Shown piece by piece: positions 16,016-33,965 of a stretch of DNA of 64,000 nt (the stretch's first letter is position 1; every line of letters begins with the position of its first letter). The position numbers were made by a program, and so were the translations under genes. Under the pieces are notes generated by a model, which searched no databases, was not told where the DNA came from, and saw nothing but the letters and a program-made list of their open reading frames with translations. Location: contig NZ_WVVV01000009.1 of the NCBI RefSeq assembly GCF_012911015.1, forward strand, positions 72,380 through 136,379. The letters are read 5' to 3'. The DNA is from Chelativorans sp. ZYF759. GTDB lineage: Bacteria; Pseudomonadota; Alphaproteobacteria; Rhizobiales; Rhizobiaceae.

Positions 16016-16092
16016 GGGGCGCGCACGTGCGCTCTGTCAAATGCCCCATGGCCGCCCCTCGTTCGGGGTCCGAGGCAACTGGGGATTTAGTC

Positions 16093-17724
16093 ATGAAATA
16101 CACGGTGGAAATCGTCGGCGTGAGCCTGGCGGCATTCCTCGCGCTGGTAGGGGCGGCGCTGTCGCAGGATTCGCTGTTCCAGGCCCACATGTGGGTGCTC
16201 TTCTTCGCGCTGGCCGGCGGCGCCGTCCTGCTCTTGCGCCGGCACAGCTTTCTGCCCGCGCCCGCGACGCCGGCGCGCTCGAGCGTGCATGCCGAGGTCG
16301 AATACATGGACGGGCCGATCCGCTACGGCGTGATCGCGACCATGTTCTGGGCGGTCGTCGGGCTTGTGGTGGGCGTCCTTATCGCCGCGCAGCTGGCCTG
16401 GCCGCAGCTCAATCTCGAGCCTTGGTTCACCTTCGGACGGGTGCGTCCCGTCCACACCTCGGCAGTCGTTTTCGCCTTTGGCGGCAACGCGCTTCTGGCC
16501 ACCTCCTTCTGGGTCGTGCAGCGCACCTCGCACGCACGGCTCTGGGGCGGCAATCTCGCCTGGTTCGTATTCTGGGGGTACCAGCTTTTCATCCTGTTGG
16601 CCGCGTCCGGCTATGTCCTGGGCATCACCCAGAGCCGCGAATATGCCGAGCCCGAATGGTATGTCGACATTCTCCTGACGGTCGTCTGGGTCGCCTATCT
16701 CGCCGTCTTCCTGGGTACGATCCTGAGGCGCAAGGAGCCCCATATCTACGTGGCGAACTGGTTCTACCTCGCCTTCATCGTCACCGTGGCCATGCTGCAT
16801 GTCGTCAACAACATGTCGATGCCGGTCTCCTTCCTGGGTACCAAGAGCTATTCGGCCTTCTCCGGCGTGCAGGATGCGCTGACGCAGTGGTGGTATGGCC
16901 ACAACGCGGTCGGCTTTTTCCTCACCGCCGGCTTCCTCGGCATCATGTATTATTTCGTGCCCAAGCAGGCGAACCGGCCGATCTATTCCTACCGGCTCTC
17001 CATCATCCACTTCTGGGCGCTGATCTTCCTCTACATCTGGGCAGGACCCCATCACCTTCACTACACGGCGCTGCCGGACTGGGCGCAGACGCTGGGCATG
17101 GTGTTCTCCATCATGCTGTGGATGCCTTCCTGGGGCGGCATGATCAACGGCCTGATGACGCTGTCCGGCGCCTGGGACAAGCTCAGGACCGACCCGATCA
17201 TCCAGATGATGGTGATCGCCATCGCCTTCTACGGCATGGCCACCTTCGAGGGTCCCGTCATGTCGATCAAGGCGGTCAACTCCCTGTCGCACTACACGGA
17301 CTGGACCGTCGGCCACGTGCATTCCGGCGCGCTTGGCTGGGTTGGCCTGATCTCCTTCGCCGCGCTCTACTACATGGCCCCGCGGCTGTGGGGACGCGCC
17401 AAGCTCTACTCGACGCGGCTTGTCAGCATCCACGTGTGGACCGCCACGCTCGGGATCGTCATCTACGCGGCGTCGATGTGGGTGTCGGGCATCATGCAGG
17501 GCCTCATGTGGCGCGAATACGACGATCAGGGCTTCTTGGTCTACTCCTTCGCGGAGACGGTGGCGGCCATGTATCCCTACTATGTGATGCGCGCTTTTGG
17601 CGGTTTCCTCTACCTGATCGGCGCGCTGATCATGGCCTACAACCTCTACATGACAATACGCGGCCATGTGCGGGAGGAGGCGCCCGTCGGCGGCTCCCTG
17701 CCCGCGCTGAAGCCAGCCGAATAG
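16093..17724 (+). CDS. ccoN: cbb3-type cytochrome c oxidase subunit I
   Basis: This 543-aa catalytic subunit carries haem b and the haem b3-CuB site where O2 is reduced. It has about twelve or more helices. Haem/Cu-ligand regions are visible in '[18 protein letters not shown]', '[16 protein letters not shown]', '[16 protein letters not shown]' and '[17 protein letters not shown]'. ATG 16093 is used, as the frame opens at 16027 without a better ribosome binding site. It is the first gene of ccoNOQP and sits downstream of a FixK box. It is a high-affinity terminal oxidase for low oxygen. Confidence 0.97.
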
Positions 17725-17733
17725 GAGGCCGCA

Positions 17734-18462
17734 ATGGCTCTCATGGAAAAGCACAAGATCCTCGAGAAGAACGCCACGCTGCTCCTGGCCGGCTCCTTCC
17801 TCGTGGTCACCATCGGCGGCATCGTCGAGATCGCCCCGCTCTTCTATCTCGAAAACACGATCGAGAAGGTGGAGGGCATGCGGCCCTACACCCCGCTGGA
17901 GCTGGCGGGCCGCAACATCTACATCCGCGAAGGCTGCTATGCCTGCCACTCACAGATGATCCGCCCCTTCCGCGACGAGGTGGAACGTTACGGCCATTAC
18001 AGCCTGGCAGCCGAGTCGATGTACGACCACCCCTTCCAGTGGGGCTCCAAGCGGACCGGGCCCGACCTGGCGCGCGTCGGCGGACGCTATTCCAACGAAT
18101 GGCACGTTCAGCATCTGATCGATCCGCGCTCCGTGGTGCCGGAATCCAACATGCCGAGCTACGGCTTCCTGGCATCGACGCCGCTCCAGTTGGACGCGGC
18201 CGGCCATCTGCGGGCCAATCGCGCGGTCGGCGTGCCGTACGACGATGAGATGATCGAGAACGCGAGCCGCGATCTCTTGGCGCAGGCCAATCCGGACGCC
18301 GATCCGTCAGGCCTTGAGTCGCGCTATCCCAAAGTGCGCGTCGAGTCCTTCGACGGCGATCCGTCGCGGGTCACCGAAATGGACGCGCTCGTCGCCTATC
18401 TCCAGATGCTCGGCACGCTGGTCGATTTCTCCACCTACGACGAAAATGTCGGTTTCCGCTGA
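17734..18462 (+). CDS. ccoO: cbb3-type cytochrome c oxidase subunit II
   Basis: This 242-aa membrane-anchored monohaem cytochrome c has one N-terminal helix ('[22 protein letters not shown]') and a periplasmic domain with haem motif 'CYACH' and axial Met in 'ESNMPSYGF'. It passes electrons to CcoN. It lies nine bases after ccoN, with GGAGG in the gap. Confidence 0.97.
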
Positions 18463-18473
18463 GGAGCACCCTG

Positions 18474-18623
18474 ATGGACTACGAATCAATGCGCCATTTC
18501 GCCGATAGCTGGGCGCTGCTGGCCCTGTTCCTCTTCTTCATCGGCGTCGTCATCTTCGCCTTCAGGCCTGGCAGCAAGAAGCACGCCGACAGGGCCTCGC
18601 AGATCCCGTTCAAGGAAGACTGA
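18474..18623 (+). CDS. ccoQ: cbb3-type oxidase small subunit CcoQ
   Basis: This 49-aa protein has a single helix ('WALLALFLFFIGVVIFAF') followed by 'RPGSKKHADRAS', the usual CcoQ layout. It stabilises the oxidase complex. It is preceded by GAGGAG and sits two bases before ccoP. Confidence 0.93.
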   Translation: MDYESMRHFADSWALLALFLFFIGVVIFAFRPGSKKHADRASQIPFKED

Positions 18624-18625
18624 TC

Positions 18626-19498
18626 ATGAGCGACCAGGACAAGAGGGAGGTCGACGAGATCTCCGGCGTCGAGACGACCGGCCATGAATGGGATGGCATC
18701 AAGGAACTGAACAACCCGCTGCCGCGCTGGTGGCTGTGGACCTTCTACGCGACCATCGTGTGGTCGATCGGCTACACGATCGCCTACCCGGCCTGGCCGC
18801 TCGTCAATTCGGCCACGCAGGGCGTGCTGGGCTATTCCAGCCGTGCCGAGCTGCACCGCGAGGTGGAACAGGTTCAACTGAGCCGAAGCGACCAGACGGC
18901 CCAGCTCGCCTCGTTGGACCTCAACGAGGTTCTGGCCGACGACGCCTTGCGCAATTTCGCCATTGCCGGCGGCGCGGCCGCCTACCGGGTCAACTGCTCC
19001 CAGTGCCACGGGACCGGTGCCCAGGGCGCGGAGGGCTTTCCCAACCTCAATGACGACAACTGGATCTGGGGCGGTACGATCGAGGATCTTCACCACACCA
19101 TTGCCCACGGCGTGCGCGATCATGCCGACTTCGACACGCGCATCTCGGAGATGCCGGCCTTCGCGGGCGTCATGACCAGGCGGGAGATCGCCGAAACGGC
19201 GGCCTTCGTCGCGAGCCTGTCGCGCGAGCCGGAAAATCCCGATCTCGTCGAGGCCGGCGCGGAGCACTTTGAGGTCTACTGCGCGGCGTGCCATGGCTTC
19301 AACGGTGAAGGAGAACGACTCCTGGGCGCGCCAAGCCTCAACAATCCCATCTGGCTCTATGGCGGCAGCGAGGCGGAAATCGCCGCGCAGATCGCCCAGC
19401 CACGCCACGGCGTGATGCCGGGCTGGGCGGATCGGCTGGGAGATGTGACGGTGCGAAAGCTCGCCGTCTTCGTGCATTCGCTTGGCGGGGGCGAATAG
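18626..19498 (+). CDS. ccoP: cbb3-type oxidase dihaem cytochrome c subunit III
   Basis: This 290-aa protein begins with the family hallmark 'GVETTGHEWDGIKELNNPLP' and has one helix pair region ('WLWTFYATIVWSIGYTIAY'). Two c-type haem motifs follow, 'CSQCH' and 'CAACH', each with a later Met ligand ('SEMPAF', 'HGVMPGW'). It takes electrons from the soluble cytochrome pool. It is the last gene of ccoNOQP. Confidence 0.97.
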   Translation: MSDQDKREVDEISGVETTGHEWDGIKELNNPLPRWWLWTFYATIVWSIGYTIAYPAWPLVNSATQGVLGYSSRAELHREVEQVQLSRSDQTAQLASLDLNEVLADDALRNFAIAGGAAAYRVNCSQCHGTGAQGAEGFPNLNDDNWIWGGTIEDLHHTIAHGVRDHADFDTRISEMPAFAGVMTRREIAETAAFVASLSREPENPDLVEAGAEHFEVYCAACHGFNGEGERLLGAPSLNNPIWLYGGSEAEIAAQIAQPRHGVMPGWADRLGDVTVRKLAVFVHSLGGGE

Positions 19499-19587
19499 GC
19501 CGCACCGGGGGGCGCGGTCTCTCTACCCCACTTCAGCGAACGGCCCGGCGGCAACGTCGGGCCGAACCTGCTTTTAGCGCCCTCGAC

Positions 19588-19601
19588 TTGACCCGGATCA
19601 A
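19588..19601. promoter_or_regulatory. FixK/FNR box upstream of ccoG
   Basis: TTGACCCGGATCAA matches TTGA-N6-TCAA and lies 80 bp before the ccoG start, almost the same spacing as at ccoN. It gives ccoGHIS its own microoxic promoter. Confidence 0.88.
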
Positions 19602-19681
19602 GGTTCCCCGCCGCACGGAGCGCGACAAGTCGAAGGACAACAGCCCCCTTGGGAGGCGCCTGCTGCGCCCCGGAGAATGCC

Positions 19682-21241
19682 ATGCTGGACACCAGCGACG
19701 TCGAACGCCTCGACGCGGAAGCCGTCAACCGGGCCGCGACGCGCCAGCCCCTCTATGCGCCGCGCAAGAAGATATTCCCCAAGCGCGCTTCGGGCAGCTT
19801 CCGCAATTTCAAGTGGCTGGTCATGCTGATCACGCTCGGCATCTACTACCTCACGCCCTGGATCCGCTGGGACCGGGGGCCTCATGCGCCTGACCAGGCA
19901 GTGCTGGTCGACATCGCCAATCGCCGCTTCTACTTCTTCTTCGCCGAGATATGGCCGCAGGAGTTCTTCATCGTCGCGGGCCTTCTGGTCATGGCGGGCA
20001 TCGGCCTGTTCCTGGTGACCTCCACCGTTGGCCGCGCCTGGTGCGGCTACACCTGCCCGCAGACGGTCTGGGTGGATCTCTTCCTCGTCGTGGAACGCTG
20101 GATCGAAGGTGACCGCAACGCGCGCATGAAGCTCGATGCGGGTCCGTGGACGGGCAGCAAGATCGTCAAGCGCGTTGCCAAGCATGGAATCTGGGTCTTG
20201 ATCGCGGTGGCCACCGGCGGCGCGTGGATATTCTATTTCGCCGACGCGCCGACGCTCGCGATGGATTTCCTGACCGGGCAGGCGGCCACCGTCGCCTATA
20301 TCACCGTCGCCGTCCTGACCGCCACGACCTACACGTTCGGCGGCCTGATGCGCGAGCAGGTCTGCATCTACATGTGCCCGTGGCCGCGCATCCAGGCGGC
20401 GATGCTCGACGAGAACTCGCTGACGGTCACGTATAATGACTGGCGCGGCGAGCCCCGCACGCGCGGCGTGAAGAAGGCTGCTGCCGAGGGCCGCGCCATC
20501 GGCGACTGCGTGGATTGCAATGCCTGCGTGGCCGTTTGCCCGATGGGCATCGACATCCGCGACGGCCAGCAGCTGGAATGCATCACATGCGCGCTGTGCA
20601 TCGATGCCTGCGACGCCATCATGGACAAGACCGGCAAGGAGCGCGGGCTGATCGCCTATGCCACGCTCGCCGACTACAACCACAACATGGCGCTGGCGAC
20701 CGGCGGCGGTGCGGCCGCCATCGATCCCGCCCGCGTGCGCGGTTCGGACGGGCGCCTGCTCCCCGATGCGCGCGGTCTCGATCTCCGCCGGCTCATTCGT
20801 CCGCGCACATTCGCCTATCTGGCGATCTGGGGTCTGGTCGGCGTCGCGCTCCTCTTCGCGCTCGCCACACGCGACCTCCTGGAAATCAGCGTCCAGCACG
20901 ACCGCAATCCGCAATTCGTGCTCCTGTCCGATGGCTCGATCCGCAACGGCTACACGGTCAAGATCCTGAACAAGGTGGCCGAACCGCGCGCAGTGACGCT
21001 GTCACTGGAGGGGCTCGAAGGCGCGACCATGCTGCTCGGCGGCTTCGACATGCCGGAATCGCGCGAGGTGTTCGTGATGCTCGAGCCCGACCGGCTCAGA
21101 AACCTGCGCGTTTTCGTGCGCATGCCACCTGAACTGGTGACCGCCGGAACCAGCGCCTTCACCTTCCGTGTCGCGGAGCGGCAAGGCGCCGAGGCCGCCA
21201 GCTATTCCGCCATCTTCCACGCCCCGGAGTCCAACCGATGA
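19682..21241 (+). CDS. ccoG: cbb3 oxidase accessory protein CcoG (FixG), polyferredoxin
   Basis: This is a 519-aa membrane protein with about five helices. Its cluster motifs are 'WCGYTCPQTVW', 'CIYMCPWPR', and two ferredoxin motifs 'CVDCNACVAVCPMGID' and 'CITCALCIDACD'. A C-terminal Ig-like domain follows. CcoG reduces Cu(II) to Cu(I) for cbb3 oxidase assembly. ATG 19682 has GGAGA upstream, and the in-frame start at 19649 is less likely. Confidence 0.95.
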   Translation: MLDTSDVERLDAEAVNRAATRQPLYAPRKKIFPKRASGSFRNFKWLVMLITLGIYYLTPWIRWDRGPHAPDQAVLVDIANRRFYFFFAEIWPQEFFIVAGLLVMAGIGLFLVTSTVGRAWCGYTCPQTVWVDLFLVVERWIEGDRNARMKLDAGPWTGSKIVKRVAKHGIWVLIAVATGGAWIFYFADAPTLAMDFLTGQAATVAYITVAVLTATTYTFGGLMREQVCIYMCPWPRIQAAMLDENSLTVTYNDWRGEPRTRGVKKAAAEGRAIGDCVDCNACVAVCPMGIDIRDGQQLECITCALCIDACDAIMDKTGKERGLIAYATLADYNHNMALATGGGAAAIDPARVRGSDGRLLPDARGLDLRRLIRPRTFAYLAIWGLVGVALLFALATRDLLEISVQHDRNPQFVLLSDGSIRNGYTVKILNKVAEPRAVTLSLEGLEGATMLLGGFDMPESREVFVMLEPDRLRNLRVFVRMPPELVTAGTSAFTFRVAERQGAEAASYSAIFHAPESNR

Positions 21242-21738
21242 ACGACATGTCCGAGCGCCCGCGTGAATTCACCGGCAAGCATCTCTTCCTGATCCTGGTT
21301 GCCTTTTTCGGCGTCATCATCTCCGTGAACGTGACGATGGCAACGCTCGCCAACAGGAGCTGGACAGGGCTGGTGGTCCAGAACTCCTATGTCGAGAGCC
21401 AGAAGTTCAACGATCATTTCGACGCCGCCCGCGCGCGGGCCGCGCTCGGCTGGCGCAGCGAGATGAGCTATGCGAACGGTTCCTTCGCCTATCGGCTGAC
21501 CAATGGCGAAGGGCAGGGCGTGCGGCTCATGGACATCGTCGTCGAGTTTCGTCGACCGGTCCAGGAATCCAAGGATCGCCAGGCTACGCTCCAGGCGGAA
21601 GGCGGAGGGAGCTTCGTTGCCGACCTCCCGCTCGAGGACGGCCAGTGGATCGTCGACATAAGTGCCGTGACACATGGTTTGAGCGAGCCGTGGCGCGACA
21701 TGAAGCGCGTCTTCGTGCGCAACGGAAGCCTGCAATGA
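21238..21738 (+). CDS. ccoH: FixH/CcoH family protein
   Basis: This 166-aa protein has one N-terminal helix ('FLILVAFFGVIISVNVTMA') and a periplasmic beta domain with 'TGLVVQNSYVESQKFN'. It is needed for stable cbb3 assembly and copper delivery. Start and stop overlap the flanking ccoG and ccoI genes by four bases each, so the set is translationally coupled. Confidence 0.93.
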   Translation: MNDMSERPREFTGKHLFLILVAFFGVIISVNVTMATLANRSWTGLVVQNSYVESQKFNDHFDAARARAALGWRSEMSYANGSFAYRLTNGEGQGVRLMDIVVEFRRPVQESKDRQATLQAEGGGSFVADLPLEDGQWIVDISAVTHGLSEPWRDMKRVFVRNGSLQ

Positions 21739-24011
21739 GCTGCTGCGCGCCCGGCACGGAAGCTGCGCTGGAACTGGCGGGCGAGGCGCTGCCGTCGGAT
21801 GAGGAATTGCTCCTGGCCAGCCGGCCGCTGGGCAACGGGCTGAGACAGGTCGACCTGTCCGTCCCGGACGTCCATTGCGGCGCGTGCATTGCCACGATCG
21901 AGGGCGCGCTCAAGCACTTGGAAGGCATGGAAAGCGCCCGCGTCAACCTATCAACGAAGCGCGTGTCGGCCAGCTGGCGTGACGGCACGCCGCCGCCGCC
22001 GATCATGTCCACTCTGTCGCGTCTCGGCTACCGCGCGCATCTTTTCGACCCGGGTGCCGGCGACAAGGACGAGCAGCTTTCGGAACTGATCCGCGCGCTG
22101 GGCGTGGCGGGCTTTGCCGCCGCCAACATCATGCTGCTGTCCGTTTCCGTCTGGTCCGGCGCGGATGCGGCGACACGGGACTTCCTTCACATCGTGTCGG
22201 CGCTGATCGCGCTGCCCGCGCTCGTCTATTCGGGCCGCATCTTCTTTCGCTCCGCGCTCGGCGCGCTGCGCCACGGCCGCTCCAACATGGACGTGCCGAT
22301 TTCGATCGGTGTCATCACCGCCTATGTGATGAGCCTCTACGAGACGATGACCAGCGGCCCGCACGCCTATTTCGATGCGGCCGTCACGCTTCTCTTCTTC
22401 CTCCTGATCGGCCGCACGCTCGACCATGTGATGCGCGAGCGGGCGCGGGTGGCCGTCAAGGGCCTCGCCCGGCTTTCGGCGCGGGGCGCGACGATCGTCT
22501 CCCCCGATGGCTCCCGTGCCTATCTGCCCGTCGCAGAGATCGAACCCGGCATGACCATCCTGCTCGCAGCCGGCGAGCGGGTGCCGGTCGATGCGAAGGT
22601 CCTCAGGGGCCGTTCCGATCTCGATCGTTCGCTGGTGACCGGCGAGAGCCGGCCCGAGCCGGTGGAAGAGGGCGCCCGCCTCCAGGCCGGTACGCTCAAC
22701 CTCACGGGACCGCTGACGCTGGAGGCCGCCGCCCCGGCCAGGGACTCCTTCCTGGCCGAGATGATGCGCCTGATGGAGGCGGCCGAGGGGGGGCGTGCCC
22801 GCTATCGCCGCATCGCCGACCGCATGGCGCAGCTTTATGCGCCGGTCGTGCATCTGGTGGCCCTCATCACGCTGGTCGGCTGGGTCATGGTCACCGGCGA
22901 CTGGCATAGGTCCATCCTGATCGCCATTGCCGTCCTCATCATCACCTGCCCCTGCGCGCTCGGCCTGGCCGTGCCGATCGTGCAGGTGATCGCCGCCCGC
23001 CGGCTGTTCGAGCAGGGCATCATGGTCAAGGACGGCTCGGCCATGGAGCGGCTGGCAGAGGCCGACACCGTCGTCTTCGACAAGACCGGCACGCTGACAT
23101 TGGGCAGGCCGAGGCTCGTCAATGCGGACGAGGTTGCGCCAGCTGATCTGGCGCTGGCGGCGGCGCTCGCCGTCCATTCGCGCCACCCGCTGTCGCTGGC
23201 GCTGGCGGAAGCCGCCGGGAATGCCGCGACGCAGACCTTCGAGCACATCGCCGAACTGCCCGGGCTCGGTGTCGAGGCGAGGAACGGCGCCGAAATCGTG
23301 CGGCTCGGACGCGCCAACTGGGCGCTCCCCGGTGCAGCCGGAGATCCGGCGGGAGCCGGCACCGTCCTGTCGCGCAACGGAAAGCTTCTCGCTGCCTTCC
23401 ATTTCGAGGACAGGCCGCGGGAGGGCGCCGCGGCGGCGGTTGCGGCGCTGGCCAGGGCGGGCCTGCCGGCCGAGATCGTTTCGGGCGACCGCGAGGCGGA
23501 GGTTGCGGCCATGGCGCGGCAGTTGGGCATTGTGCGATTCGAGGCCGGCATGCTGCCCGGCGCGAAGACGGAACGGCTGAAGGCCCTGTCGGCTGCCGGT
23601 CACAAGCCGCTGATGGTTGGCGACGGGCTCAACGACGCGCCGGCGCTCGCAGCGGCCCACGTCTCGATGGCGCCCGCCAACGCGGCCGATATCGGCCGGC
23701 AGGCGGCCGACCTCGTCTTCCTCCGCGACAACCTCTCAGCCGTGCCTGCGGCGATCGACCTGTCGCGGCGCGCGGGCGTGCTGATCCGCCAGAACTTCGC
23801 CATCGCCACGGTCTACAATGTCGTCGCGGTGCCGATCGCCGTGCTCGGCTATGTGACGCCTCTGGTGGCGGCGATCGCGATGTCGGTGTCCTCGGTCATC
23901 GTGGTGCTCAACGCCATGCGGCTCAAGCCGGCTCGGGTCGATGCCGTTGAATCGCAGCCGCAGGCCACGCAGGCCGCCGCGCGCGGGCTGCGACTGGAGC
24001 CGGCCGAATGA
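21735..24011 (+). CDS. ccoI: Copper-translocating P-type ATPase CcoI (FixI)
   Basis: This 758-aa P1B ATPase has a Cys-rich start 'MSCCAPG', one HMA domain with 'VHCGACIATIE', eight helices with the 'TCPCALGLAVP' metal site, the phosphorylation loop 'VFDKTGTLT', and 'MVGDGLNDAPAL'. The CcoI branch exports Cu for insertion into CcoN rather than for detoxification. It lies within ccoGHIS. Confidence 0.96.
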   Translation: MSCCAPGTEAALELAGEALPSDEELLLASRPLGNGLRQVDLSVPDVHCGACIATIEGALKHLEGMESARVNLSTKRVSASWRDGTPPPPIMSTLSRLGYRAHLFDPGAGDKDEQLSELIRALGVAGFAAANIMLLSVSVWSGADAATRDFLHIVSALIALPALVYSGRIFFRSALGALRHGRSNMDVPISIGVITAYVMSLYETMTSGPHAYFDAAVTLLFFLLIGRTLDHVMRERARVAVKGLARLSARGATIVSPDGSRAYLPVAEIEPGMTILLAAGERVPVDAKVLRGRSDLDRSLVTGESRPEPVEEGARLQAGTLNLTGPLTLEAAAPARDSFLAEMMRLMEAAEGGRARYRRIADRMAQLYAPVVHLVALITLVGWVMVTGDWHRSILIAIAVLIITCPCALGLAVPIVQVIAARRLFEQGIMVKDGSAMERLAEADTVVFDKTGTLTLGRPRLVNADEVAPADLALAAALAVHSRHPLSLALAEAAGNAATQTFEHIAELPGLGVEARNGAEIVRLGRANWALPGAAGDPAGAGTVLSRNGKLLAAFHFEDRPREGAAAAVAALARAGLPAEIVSGDREAEVAAMARQLGIVRFEAGMLPGAKTERLKALSAAGHKPLMVGDGLNDAPALAAAHVSMAPANAADIGRQAADLVFLRDNLSAVPAAIDLSRRAGVLIRQNFAIATVYNVVAVPIAVLGYVTPLVAAIAMSVSSVIVVLNAMRLKPARVDAVESQPQATQAAARGLRLEPAE

Positions 24012-30667: not shown

Positions 30668-32158
30668 TTGGCCCATCTGATCGCAAACGACGAACGTCCG
30701 GGGCAGGGGGTGGCCGGCTATGCGCTGGCCGCGGCCGGCGCGCTGGTGGTGCTCGTCGTCTGGTTCCTGCTCGTGGATCATACTGGCAGCACCTGGGTTG
30801 CTCTCATGCTCGCCCTCGTTGCGCTCGGTGCAGGCTCACAAGGCGGCTGGGCGCCGGGCATGGCGGCGACGGCGCTTGTTCTCGCCGGGCTGGTGGGGGG
30901 CACCCTCATTGCGCCCGACAGCTATCCGATTGCCGCCTCGGAGCTTCTGGCGATAGCGGTGGCCGGGGTTCTGCTGACCCTTTGCGGGGCCCGGTATCAG
31001 AAAGCGGAACGCCGGTCGCGGCGCACGGCCGCCCAGCTCGTGGCGCGAGAGGCGCATCTTCGTTCGATTCTCGATACGGTACCGGACGCCACGGTCGTCA
31101 TCGATCGAAAGGGTGTGATCCAGACCTTCAACAAGGCCGCCGTGCGCCAGTTCGGCTATTCGGAGGAAGAGGTGTCGGGACGCAATGTCAGCCTCCTCAT
31201 GCCGCAGCCCTACCGGGGCGAGCACGACGCCTACATGAACCGCTACATGCAGACCGGAGAACGCCGCATCATCGGGATTGACCGCGTCGTCGTCGGACAG
31301 CGCAAGGACGGCTCGACCTTTCCCATGAAGCTTGCGGTGGGCGAGATGAAGAGCGGCGACCAGGTATTCTTCACCGGCTTCATCCGCGACCTGACGGAGC
31401 GCGCGGAATCGGAGGCACGACTGGAGGAGGTGCAGGGCGAACTCGCCAGGCTGGCGCGCATCAACGAGCTGGGCGAGATGGCCTCGACACTGGCCCATGA
31501 GCTCAACCAGCCGCTGTCGGCGATCGCCAATTACGTGCAAGGCTGCACGCGGCTTCTGAGGCGCTTCGACGACGACTTGGCCAACCGCATGCGCGAGGCG
31601 CTGGAAGAGACCGCCCGGCAGTCCCTGCGTGCCGGCCAGATCATCCGGCATCTGCGCGAGTTCGTCACAAGGGGAGAGACCGAAAAGCAGCCGGAAGATC
31701 TGAAACAGCTCGTCGAGGAGGCGGCCGCTTTGGCCCTGGTCGGTTCCCGGGAAGCGGGGATCCGCACAGTTTTCGAGTTCGGGGACGAGGCACGGACCGT
31801 GCTGGTGGATCGCGTCCAGATCCAGCAGGTCCTCATCAACCTGTTGCGCAACGCGATGGAGGCGATGCGCCATTCCGAGCGCCGCGAGCTGCGCGTGCGC
31901 ACATCGTCTGCGGCGGAGCAAGGGATGGTGCAGATCGAAGTCGCCGACACCGGCCCGGGGCTGACCGACGATGTCGCCCAGCAGCTCTTCAAGCCCTTTG
32001 TCACGACAAAACCCGGTGGCATGGGCGTCGGACTTTCTATATCCAAGCGCATCGTGGAGGCCCATGGCGGCACGATCGTGATGGATCGCAACGAACAGGG
32101 TGGAGCCACGTTCCGTTTCACCATGCCGGCCATCGACGAAGAGGCGAATCCGACATGA
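30668..32158 (+). CDS. fixL: Oxygen-sensing histidine kinase FixL
   Basis: This 496-aa sensor has about four N-terminal helices (residues 15-107), a haem PAS domain (about 130-245), then HisKA and HATPase domains. The haem ligand is His186 in '[10 protein letters not shown]' and the O2-gating Arg206 lies in '[10 protein letters not shown]'; the 20-residue spacing equals that of B. japonicum His200/Arg220. The phospho-acceptor is His277 in '[15 protein letters not shown]'; '[10 protein letters not shown]' and 'DTGPGL' bind ATP. The start is TTG at 30668 with CGGAAG upstream, as no ATG fits. It overlaps fixJ by four bases. Confidence 0.95.
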
Positions 32159-32766
32159 GCGCAGATGTGATCGTCCACATCGTCGACGACGAAGAGCCGG
32201 TGCGCAAATCGCTGGCCTTTCTCCTGACCATGTCCGACCATGCCGTGCGCGTTCATGAATCGGCGACCGCTTTCCTCGCCATCGCTTCCGGTCTCGATCG
32301 TGCCTGTCTCGTGACGGATCTGCGCATGCCCGACATGAGCGGCGTCGAACTGCTCAAGAAGCTGCGCGAGCAGGACGCCATGCTGCCGACCATCGTCATC
32401 ACCGGTCATGCCGACGTCCCGATGGCGGTCGAGGCGATGAAGGCAGGCGCGCTGGATTTCATCGAGAAGCCGTTCGAGGACGAAGTGCTGCTTGAGGCTA
32501 TCGCGCGTGCGATCGGAGAACTCGGCAAGCAGGAGAATGGCGGGCATGATTCAGGCGCCGTACGGGAGCGCATGACCCGCCTGTCCGAACGCGAGCAGCA
32601 GGTCATGACCGGCATCGTCGCGGGCCTGCCCAACAAGACGATCGCCTATGATCTCGACATCAGCCCCCGCACCGTCGAGGTCCATCGCGCCAACGTCATG
32701 GCCAAGATGCAGGCCCGCAATCTGCCCGAACTCGTGCGTATGGTCATGGCGGCGAAGACGGACTGA
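32155..32766 (+). CDS. fixJ: Response regulator FixJ
   Basis: This 203-aa regulator has a receiver domain (Asp11, Asp12, phospho-Asp55 in '[11 protein letters not shown]', Lys in 'IEKPFEDE') and a LuxR-type helix-turn-helix ('[20 protein letters not shown]', '[18 protein letters not shown]'). Phosphorylated by FixL at low O2, it should activate fixK. It is in an ATGA overlap with fixL. Confidence 0.96.
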
Positions 32767-32783: not shown

Positions 32784-32797
32784 TTGATCGAACTCAA
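32784..32797. promoter_or_regulatory. FixK/FNR box after fixJ
   Basis: TTGATCGAACTCAA matches TTGA-N6-TCAA; the inner C of the right half departs from the ideal ATCAA. It lies 17 bp after fixJ and 77 bp before the TTG start of the receiver-like gene, the same spacing as at ccoN. Confidence 0.75.
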
Positions 32798-32874
32798 GGC
32801 GTGGTTCCCGCGCGCGGCGCATCTTTCACGTCATGGTGGACGTTGGTCGCCGCCGCTTCTTGTGGAGAGCCGAA

Positions 32875-33246
32875 TTGTCCGATGCCGGCCAGATCCTCGT
32901 GATTGCCCCAGACGACGCGGTGCGCCTTTCGCTCTGCTTCGTGCTCGAGGCCGAGGGGTTCAAGGTGAGGCTCGCCGCGCGTGCGCGGGATGCCGTGCGC
33001 GAATTGCGGCAGGCCGACTGCATCATCATCGACGACGCGGCCCTGTCCGAAGCGAGGGATTGCGGGCTGTCGATCGAATCGTCGCCCGTCATCGTCCTGG
33101 CGGAAAGGGTCGAGGAGACCTCCGCCGGTCCGGGACATGCGCTCGTGCAGAAACCCTTGCTGGGCAAGGCCCTCATCGACATCGTCGAAAGGGCCTTGGC
33201 GGTCCGTATCCCCATGCCGGCCCTGGCGCAGGGGGCGGCTACGTAG
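32875..33246 (+). CDS. Degenerate receiver-domain protein between fixJ and fixK
   Basis: This 123-aa stand-alone domain has a CheY-like fold: 'QILVIAPDDAVRLSLCFVLE', 'ADCIIIDDAALSEA', 'SPVIVLAERVEE', 'ALVQKPLLGKALIDIVERAL'. The Asp of strand 3 and the KP of strand 5 are kept. The acidic pair of strand 1 reads Ala-Pro and the conserved Thr/Ser of strand 4 reads Ala, so normal phosphorylation is doubtful. TTG 32875 has GGAG seven bases ahead; the ATG at 32833 lacks one. It sits behind a FixK box, so it could be a feedback modulator of FixL/FixJ, comparable in position to FixT (inference). No DNA-binding domain is present. Confidence 0.72.
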   Translation: MSDAGQILVIAPDDAVRLSLCFVLEAEGFKVRLAARARDAVRELRQADCIIIDDAALSEARDCGLSIESSPVIVLAERVEETSAGPGHALVQKPLLGKALIDIVERALAVRIPMPALAQGAAT

Positions 33247-33323
33247 AACTACTTAGGAGGTAACCGAATATCGGTGACCCGGCGGATCGGCGAAGGTCTC
33301 TCCACAACAGATGGAGACCCCCC

Positions 33324-33965
33324 ATGGCCAGCCACTTCGCTTTCGGATCACCTGCCACGCGAATCGACCTCGATGGCATGCTGTCGCAGCAGGCGGGGCG
33401 TGGTGCGCAGGTCACCCACTACAACGCGAATACCGAGATTTACGCCCCCGGCGACCGCGCCAATGCGCTCTATCAGATCGATTTCGGTGCTGTGCGCATC
33501 TACAGGCTCCTGTCCGACGGACGTCGCCAGATCAGCGCCTTCCACGTCGCCGGCGAAGTGTTCGGCTTCGAGGCGAGCGAGAAGCACGGCTTCTTCGCCG
33601 AGGCGATTGCGGCCTGCGGAATCCGCAGCTATCGCATGCCGCCGGAAGAGCGGGTGGCGCGCGAGCTTCTGCCCATCGCCCTTCAGGCGCTGGTGCGGGC
33701 GCAGGAACACATGCTCGTCATCGGCCGGCAGTCGGCCAGCGAGCGGGTCGCGGCCTTCCTTCTGGAGATGATGGAGCGCCAGGGCGGTCTGGACCACGTC
33801 GACCTGCCGATGTCCCGCACCGATATCGGCGACTATCTCGGCCTGACCATCGAGACCGTGTCGCGCGCCTTCTCCCGTTTCCGGGAGAGCGGCCATATCC
33901 ACCTGGTCAACACACGCACGGTCGAGATCCGCAAGCCGGACGCGCTGCGCGCCATGTGCGAGTAG
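33324..33965 (+). CDS. fixK: Crp/Fnr-family regulator FixK
   Basis: This 213-aa regulator has a cyclic-nucleotide-type beta roll (25-130) and a winged helix ('SRTDIGDYLGLTIETVSRAF'). The recognition helix Glu-Ser-Arg pattern reads E-x-x-SR, which binds TTGA-N6-TCAA. The N-terminus has no Cys cluster, so it is FixK, not an oxygen-sensing FnrN. GGAGA precedes ATG 33324. It is the likely activator of the six boxes in this window and is itself probably driven by FixJ-P. Confidence 0.93.
   Translation: MASHFAFGSPATRIDLDGMLSQQAGRGAQVTHYNANTEIYAPGDRANALYQIDFGAVRIYRLLSDGRRQISAFHVAGEVFGFEASEKHGFFAEAIAACGIRSYRMPPEERVARELLPIALQALVRAQEHMLVIGRQSASERVAAFLLEMMERQGGLDHVDLPMSRTDIGDYLGLTIETVSRAFSRFRESGHIHLVNTRTVEIRKPDALRAMCE

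Follow-up and report, generated by a model that had tools for sequence, protein, structure and literature searches.

A very probable fixT gene between fixJ and fixK of Chelativorans sp. ZYF759

The gene located between fixJ and fixK in the analyzed stretch of Chelativorans sp. ZYF759 DNA (64,000 nucleotides, here named the window) is very probably fixT, which encodes a known small protein that brakes the kinase FixL in a feedback loop. This identification is based on homology, gene order, the presence and conservation of both kinds of DNA site, the predicted fold, the missing acidic pair and the presence of a cysteine equivalent to C64 of Caulobacter crescentus FixT. Dependence on FixK, binding to FixL and inhibition of FixL would be carried over from the FixT proteins of S. 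meliloti and C. crescentus.

Gene order, reading frame and regulatory sites

The fixT frame (32875..33246, forward strand) encodes 123 aa from a TTG start codon to a TAG stop codon (33244-33246), and is preceded by fixL and fixJ and followed by fixK, all on the same strand. The fixL gene (30668..32158), specifying a PAS-domain oxygen sensor kinase, matches the NCBIfam model sens_FixL_Rhizob with an E-value of 1.7e-158 and 528 bits, under the cut-off of 850; the response regulator gene fixJ (32155..32766) matches the NCBIfam FixJ model above its cut-off (E 1.3e-92); and fixK (33324..33965), encoding a CRP/FNR-type regulator, matches the Caulobacter FixK model with an E-value of 2.2e-54 and 184 bits, under the cut-off of 300, so that fixJ alone among the three passes the NCBIfam threshold. 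The order fixL-fixJ-fixT-fixK is shared with S. meliloti, the pSymA record CP140953 of which is annotated as fixL-fixJ-fixT-HTH regulator-...-ccoN. One fixT was found in the present genome (91 contigs), as compared to fixT1 and fixT2 in S. meliloti (PMC5596199). The window is a fix region, which at 16027-24008 also encodes a subunit I of the COX1 family (the presumed fixN product), FixO, FixP, FixG and FixH, as judged by Pfam, together with a P-type ATPase containing a metal-binding domain. The genome also contains an AsnO-type gene (TIGR03104, 996 bits against a cut-off of 570, which is passed by none of 14 control genomes), and this was counted in favor of FixT identity because asnO is required for the activity of S. 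meliloti FixT (PMC7078487).

The open frame between fixJ and fixK that the earlier note had described as receiver-like, and its TTG start codon with a good ribosome binding site, are both borne out by the sequence. The site, GGAG, was read at 32864..32867 on the forward strand, 7 nt 5' of the TTG at 32875. An upstream ATG at 32833 would extend the product by 14 residues to 137 aa, yet the TTG is the likelier start, given that the annotated S. meliloti fixT likewise starts at TTG. Moreover, FixK boxes in the class II position, as for FNR-type regulators, are centered approximately 41.5 nt 5' of the transcript start. For a box at 32784 this rule places the transcript start near 32832, which would leave the ATG without a leader and again favors the TTG. 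The G+C fractions at codon positions 1, 2 and 3 (0.71, 0.46 and 0.85) resemble those of fixL, fixJ and fixK. When 61 genomes were searched, matches to fixT were obtained in 12 (E<=0.001, the genome of origin counted), the best non-self match having an E-value of 5e-12 and internal stops being absent; four of these matches (L002-L005) adjoin a FixJ and the remainder are receivers in other settings.

The FixK box claimed 77 bp upstream of the gene is indeed present: TTGATCGAACTCAA, at 32784..32797 on the forward strand, ends 77 nt before the TTG, differs at one position from TTGAYN4RTCAA and agrees with the FixK2 consensus, quoted as TTGA/C-N6-T/GCAA (PMC9104804). The corresponding box of S. meliloti fixT, TTGATCTCGCGCAA, ends 75 nt 5' of its TTG. 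The FixK-type core TTGA-N6-TCAA was matched at 7 or more of its 8 bases 5' of fixT in all 36 loci compared, and 85-115 nt before strand 1 in 32 of them; in 200 shuffles of the set of upstream regions, preserving base composition only, 0.71 loci were matched on average and 4 at the most. Many of these sites have the form TTGA-N6-GCAA, in agreement with the FixK2 consensus. This set, and the set of 38 loci used below, contain near-identical and thus non-independent loci (several from S. meliloti; genome G030 and its relatives); L096, L097, L002 and L003 were omitted from both as repeats, and L046 and L047, where FixJ was not found, are outside the set of 36. Exact matches to TTGAYN4RTCAA occur at five places in the window (16002, 19588, 26121, 30547 and 36718), in the vicinity of fixN, fixG, the gene of a universal stress protein, fixL and a gene with a flavodoxin-fold product; genome-wide the motif occurs at 25 places (3 for the reversed-pattern control), five of which are thus inside these 64 kb.

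The sequence CTACGTAGAACTACTTAG (33239..33256, forward strand), a putative FixJ box belonging to the promoter of fixK, overlaps the fixT stop codon and is one base off GTAMGTAG. The hexamer TACGTA occurs near the fixT stop codon in 25 of the 38 loci, as compared to at most 9 for the commonest 6-mer in the composition-preserving shuffles; it often includes the stop codon itself and is followed by TTTCCC and ACCGAATTT elements. Considering that these sites resemble the published FixJ sites, GTAMGTAG and GTAGTTTCCC (PMC4999443), the 3' end of fixT and the promoter of fixK appear to overlap. Such an overlap would also account for several FixT proteins ending in Ala-Thr, and the same bases seem to be under both coding and promoter constraint. 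In the window (33239-33272) and among the 38 loci, the putative FixJ box precedes a conserved ACCGAATTT-like element.

Family membership and predicted fold

The best NCBIfam match of the window protein is the Caulobacter FixT model NF051882 (39.9 bits), followed by the FixJ model (4.5e-6). The score is under the NF051882 cut-off of 150 bits; however, annotated S. meliloti FixT obtains 28.8 bits, likewise under the cut-off and lower than the window protein, so that a missed cut-off is no argument against membership, and the value of 150 bits was treated as an annotation threshold rather than as a defining feature. The cut-off is passed in none of 297 genomes of the order. In the Caulobacter-type family, located by means of the Caulobacter CckA model, 11 of the 199 genomes pass it, and the genomes with Caulobacter-type FixT were chosen from this family for their FixT passing NF051882. 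At E<=0.01, 27 of 28 aligned sequences, the window protein among them, match NF051882, and one of the 28 matches Pfam Response_reg, the receiver match of the window protein itself having an E-value of 0.049.

Searching the genome with S. meliloti FixT returned the window gene first (6.4e-7), the next match being at 0.04. The identity to S. meliloti FixT is 28% over 106 aa, and that to the Caulobacter-type FixT L102, which passes the NF051882 cut-off, is 37% over 100 aa. No significant BLASTP match was obtained between the window protein and the FixJ of its own genome (E 0.17). A tblastn search of plasmids gave no match at E<=0.01; at E<=10 it returned 58 records, 39 of which are Sinorhizobium, with E-values of 0.04-2 for the Sinorhizobium entries among the 30 matches listed.

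For phylogenetic analysis, FixT-like sequences were collected with a profile of the 28 sequences (E<=1e-4), which also catches some ordinary receivers (e.g. L006-L012). Removal of FixT-like sequences shorter than 90 residues, FixJ receivers shorter than 110 residues and exact duplicates reduced 126 FixT-like hits to 109 sequences (query included) and 104 FixJ hits to 90, and the resulting 199 sequences (120 columns) were used to construct a FastTree phylogeny. Here, the window protein is placed in a 42-member clade free of FixJ and including annotated S. meliloti FixT (support 0.981), its nearest neighbors being joined with low support (0.19-0.38); two of the 90 FixJ receivers are placed within the FixT-like group.

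An AlphaFold2 model (17 sequences; pLDDT 77.7, pTM 0.74) predicts a receiver fold, in which the helix 4 region, between strands 4 and 5, is modeled as a three-residue helix only. The best structural match of this model has a Z score of 16.2 and an rmsd of 1.9 over 107 residues, the 50 VIA matches listed (Z 14.9-16.2) are nearly all receivers, and Foldseek retrieved full-length FixJ of B. japonicum (E 5e-6). The window protein is thus predicted to have the single-domain receiver fold of FixT.

The earlier note had raised the possibility of a feedback inhibitor of FixL or FixJ that is receiver-derived and independent of FixT. A FixK-controlled inhibitory role toward FixL is retained, by analogy with the studied proteins. 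The independence is not, as the gene occupies the same place as S. meliloti fixT, and its product clusters with S. meliloti FixT and is the best match of the latter in the genome. Derivation from a receiver provides no distinction either, since the FixT proteins of S. meliloti and C. crescentus are themselves described as single-domain response regulators (PMC7078487). Within the FixT family, the window protein is well preserved but unremarkable.

Pocket, cysteines and mode of action

As had been claimed from the sequence, the window FixT retains the strand-3 aspartate (D53) and the Lys-Pro of strand 5 (K93-P94), and has lost both the acidic pair, replaced by A11-P12, and the strand-4 Thr/Ser, replaced by A76. 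It thereby departs from the canonical CheY-type single-domain response regulator, which has the acidic pair, Asp, Thr/Ser and Lys. Caulobacter-type L102, in contrast, keeps the strand-4 Thr. The residues F22, G28, C49, D53, K93, P94 and G97 (numbering of the 123-aa protein) are invariant in the 28 aligned sequences, an alignment that counts from residue 2, so that D53 and K93 are D52 and K92 there. In a second set of 17 sequences the conserved Cys and Lys are nearly invariant, the exception being L130 from a Devosia MAG, which has neither the C64-equivalent Cys nor the Lys. Such a degenerate pocket is a trait of FixT, since the S. meliloti and C. crescentus proteins are reported to be without these acidic residues and to remain unphosphorylated (PMC9430884). 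S. meliloti FixT shares with the window protein its receiver-like character, the lost acidic pair and the retained Cys-x3-Asp and Lys-Pro.

The invariance of D53 and K93, together with the whole pocket kept by some fixJ-linked single receivers, could be accommodated by a phosphate sink, in which D53 of the protein would accept the phosphate of FixL and signal would be diverted from FixJ; this is very unlikely in view of the loss of the acidic pair and Thr/Ser in the window protein, the absence of an intact acidic pair from all 42 members of its clade, and the unphosphorylated state reported for the two studied FixT proteins.

According to the preferred reading of the gene as fixT, FixL would phosphorylate FixJ at low oxygen, and phosphorylated FixJ would activate fixK through the FixJ box that overlaps the fixT terminus. 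FixK would in turn activate fixT from the box at 32784, and FixT, a receiver with a degraded pocket, would target the FixL kinase and stop its autophosphorylation, thereby damping the cascade. FixL as the target is suggested by analogy: in both studied cases FixT acts on FixL autophosphorylation and not on phosphotransfer to FixJ, and for C. crescentus FixT neither dephosphorylation nor transfer to FixJ was affected (PMC7078487). Activation of fixT1 by FixK1 is reported to reduce the transcription of fixK1 itself (PMC5596199). Osp of Rhodobacter sphaeroides, a single-domain receiver, is described as working by the same kind of mechanism, in which an unphosphorylated receiver-like protein closes a feedback loop by inhibiting a histidine kinase (PMC9430884), yet its kinase is CckA and the activator CtrA. 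A receiver-like protein acting instead on FixJ or FixK, for instance as a partner of the FixJ receiver, would suit the position of the gene between fixJ and fixK and the FixJ model as NCBIfam runner-up; set against the autophosphorylation results for both studied proteins, this target is even less likely than the phosphate sink.

C49 of the window FixT aligns with C64 of C. crescentus FixT, the Caulobacter-type sequence being CVIIDD and that of the window CIIIDD. The Caulobacter-type motif C-x2-C-x2-C-x4-C terminates at the Cys of CVIIDD and has the spacing of C53, C56, C59 and C64, the Cys motif of C. crescentus FixT (PMC7078487); C64 therefore corresponds to C49. C64 is described as broadly conserved and critical to FixL inhibition (PMC7078487). 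As a signature of FixT this Cys is weakened, being present in 94 of the 109 FixT-like sequences and also in 69 of the 90 FixJ receivers. When tested for the four-Cys motif, the window FixT was found to keep the last Cys only, and a Caulobacter-type Fe-S cluster is consequently not expected. An oxygen or redox sensor of the C. crescentus kind, carrying an Fe-S cluster and cleared by Lon upon cluster oxidation, might be considered from the homology and the common C64 position. It is made highly improbable, below both of the preceding alternatives, by the other three missing cysteines and by the statement in PMC7078487 that the motif is absent outside Caulobacter, and an Fe-S-binding FixT was rejected as the identity of the window protein.

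Separately, a FixT-like frame between fixJ and fixK in a genome of the window's family (G762; L085:994-1356, minus strand) has C-x3-C-x3-C-x5-C around strand 3, and is a candidate for an independent Fe-S FixT. A C-x4-C pair with the C59/C64 spacing, ending at the conserved Cys, also occurs outside the Caulobacter-type loci (L045, L095-L097, L014, L020, L022, L024 and L030), S. meliloti being among the carriers.

The least probable reading, a functionless decaying fixJ duplicate as the marginal Pfam receiver signal might suggest, conflicts with the open frame, the invariant residues, and the gene order and FixK box conserved across many genomes.

Distribution and relation to phosphorylatable receivers

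When 297 genomes of the family were searched for FixJ, 80 had a match at E<=1e-50, and the 30 best-scoring fixJ loci of these, a selection biased toward near relatives, were inspected. A FixT-like ORF is present 3' of fixJ in 28 of these best 30 (own locus included), L073 and L076 having no such frame, and a fixK match follows the FixT-like frame in 26 of the 30; none was found within locus L067 or L075. A set of 16 loci includes Nitratireductor, Chelativorans, Mesorhizobium, Paramesorhizobium and one Devosia MAG. The distance from the fixJ stop to FixT strand 1 is 1280 nt in L067 and 615 nt in L086, as compared to 100-234 nt in the other loci measured. In Agrobacterium pusense pR76, a FixT-like frame is present between fixJ and fixK (L048:4007-4342); it is missing from the gene table shown, which is incomplete, and has no FixT model match at E<=0.001.

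Of the 109 FixT-like sequences, 40 retain the complete set of four pocket residues; half of these 40 (20) have a FixJ in the same locus and may, judging from their residues, be phosphorylatable relatives of FixT; the other 20 are probably unrelated receivers. The fixJ-linked, pocket-intact sequences are L005, L013, L015, L016, L018, L019, L023, L025, L029, L035, L051, L052, L054, L057, L098-L101, L115 and L120. Fitch parsimony gives seven changes of the acidic pair, the deep branches of the tree used being weakly supported. A tentative possibility, which we consider rather unlikely, is that FixT is one end of a continuum, in which fixJ-adjacent phosphorylatable single receivers repeatedly lost the acidic pair to become pure antikinases, the clade of the window protein being fully converted. 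Were this so, the conversion of a phosphate acceptor into a kinase inhibitor could be recapitulated by experiment.

The present work adds little on the gene itself, the explanation of which was already known. It indicates that FixT, known so far from work on S. meliloti and Caulobacter, is retained with its regulatory sites (scored on the sets of 36 and 38 loci) across many relatives, Nitratireductor and Chelativorans among them, in which domain models, both the Pfam receiver model and the FixT model at its cut-off, mostly overlook it.
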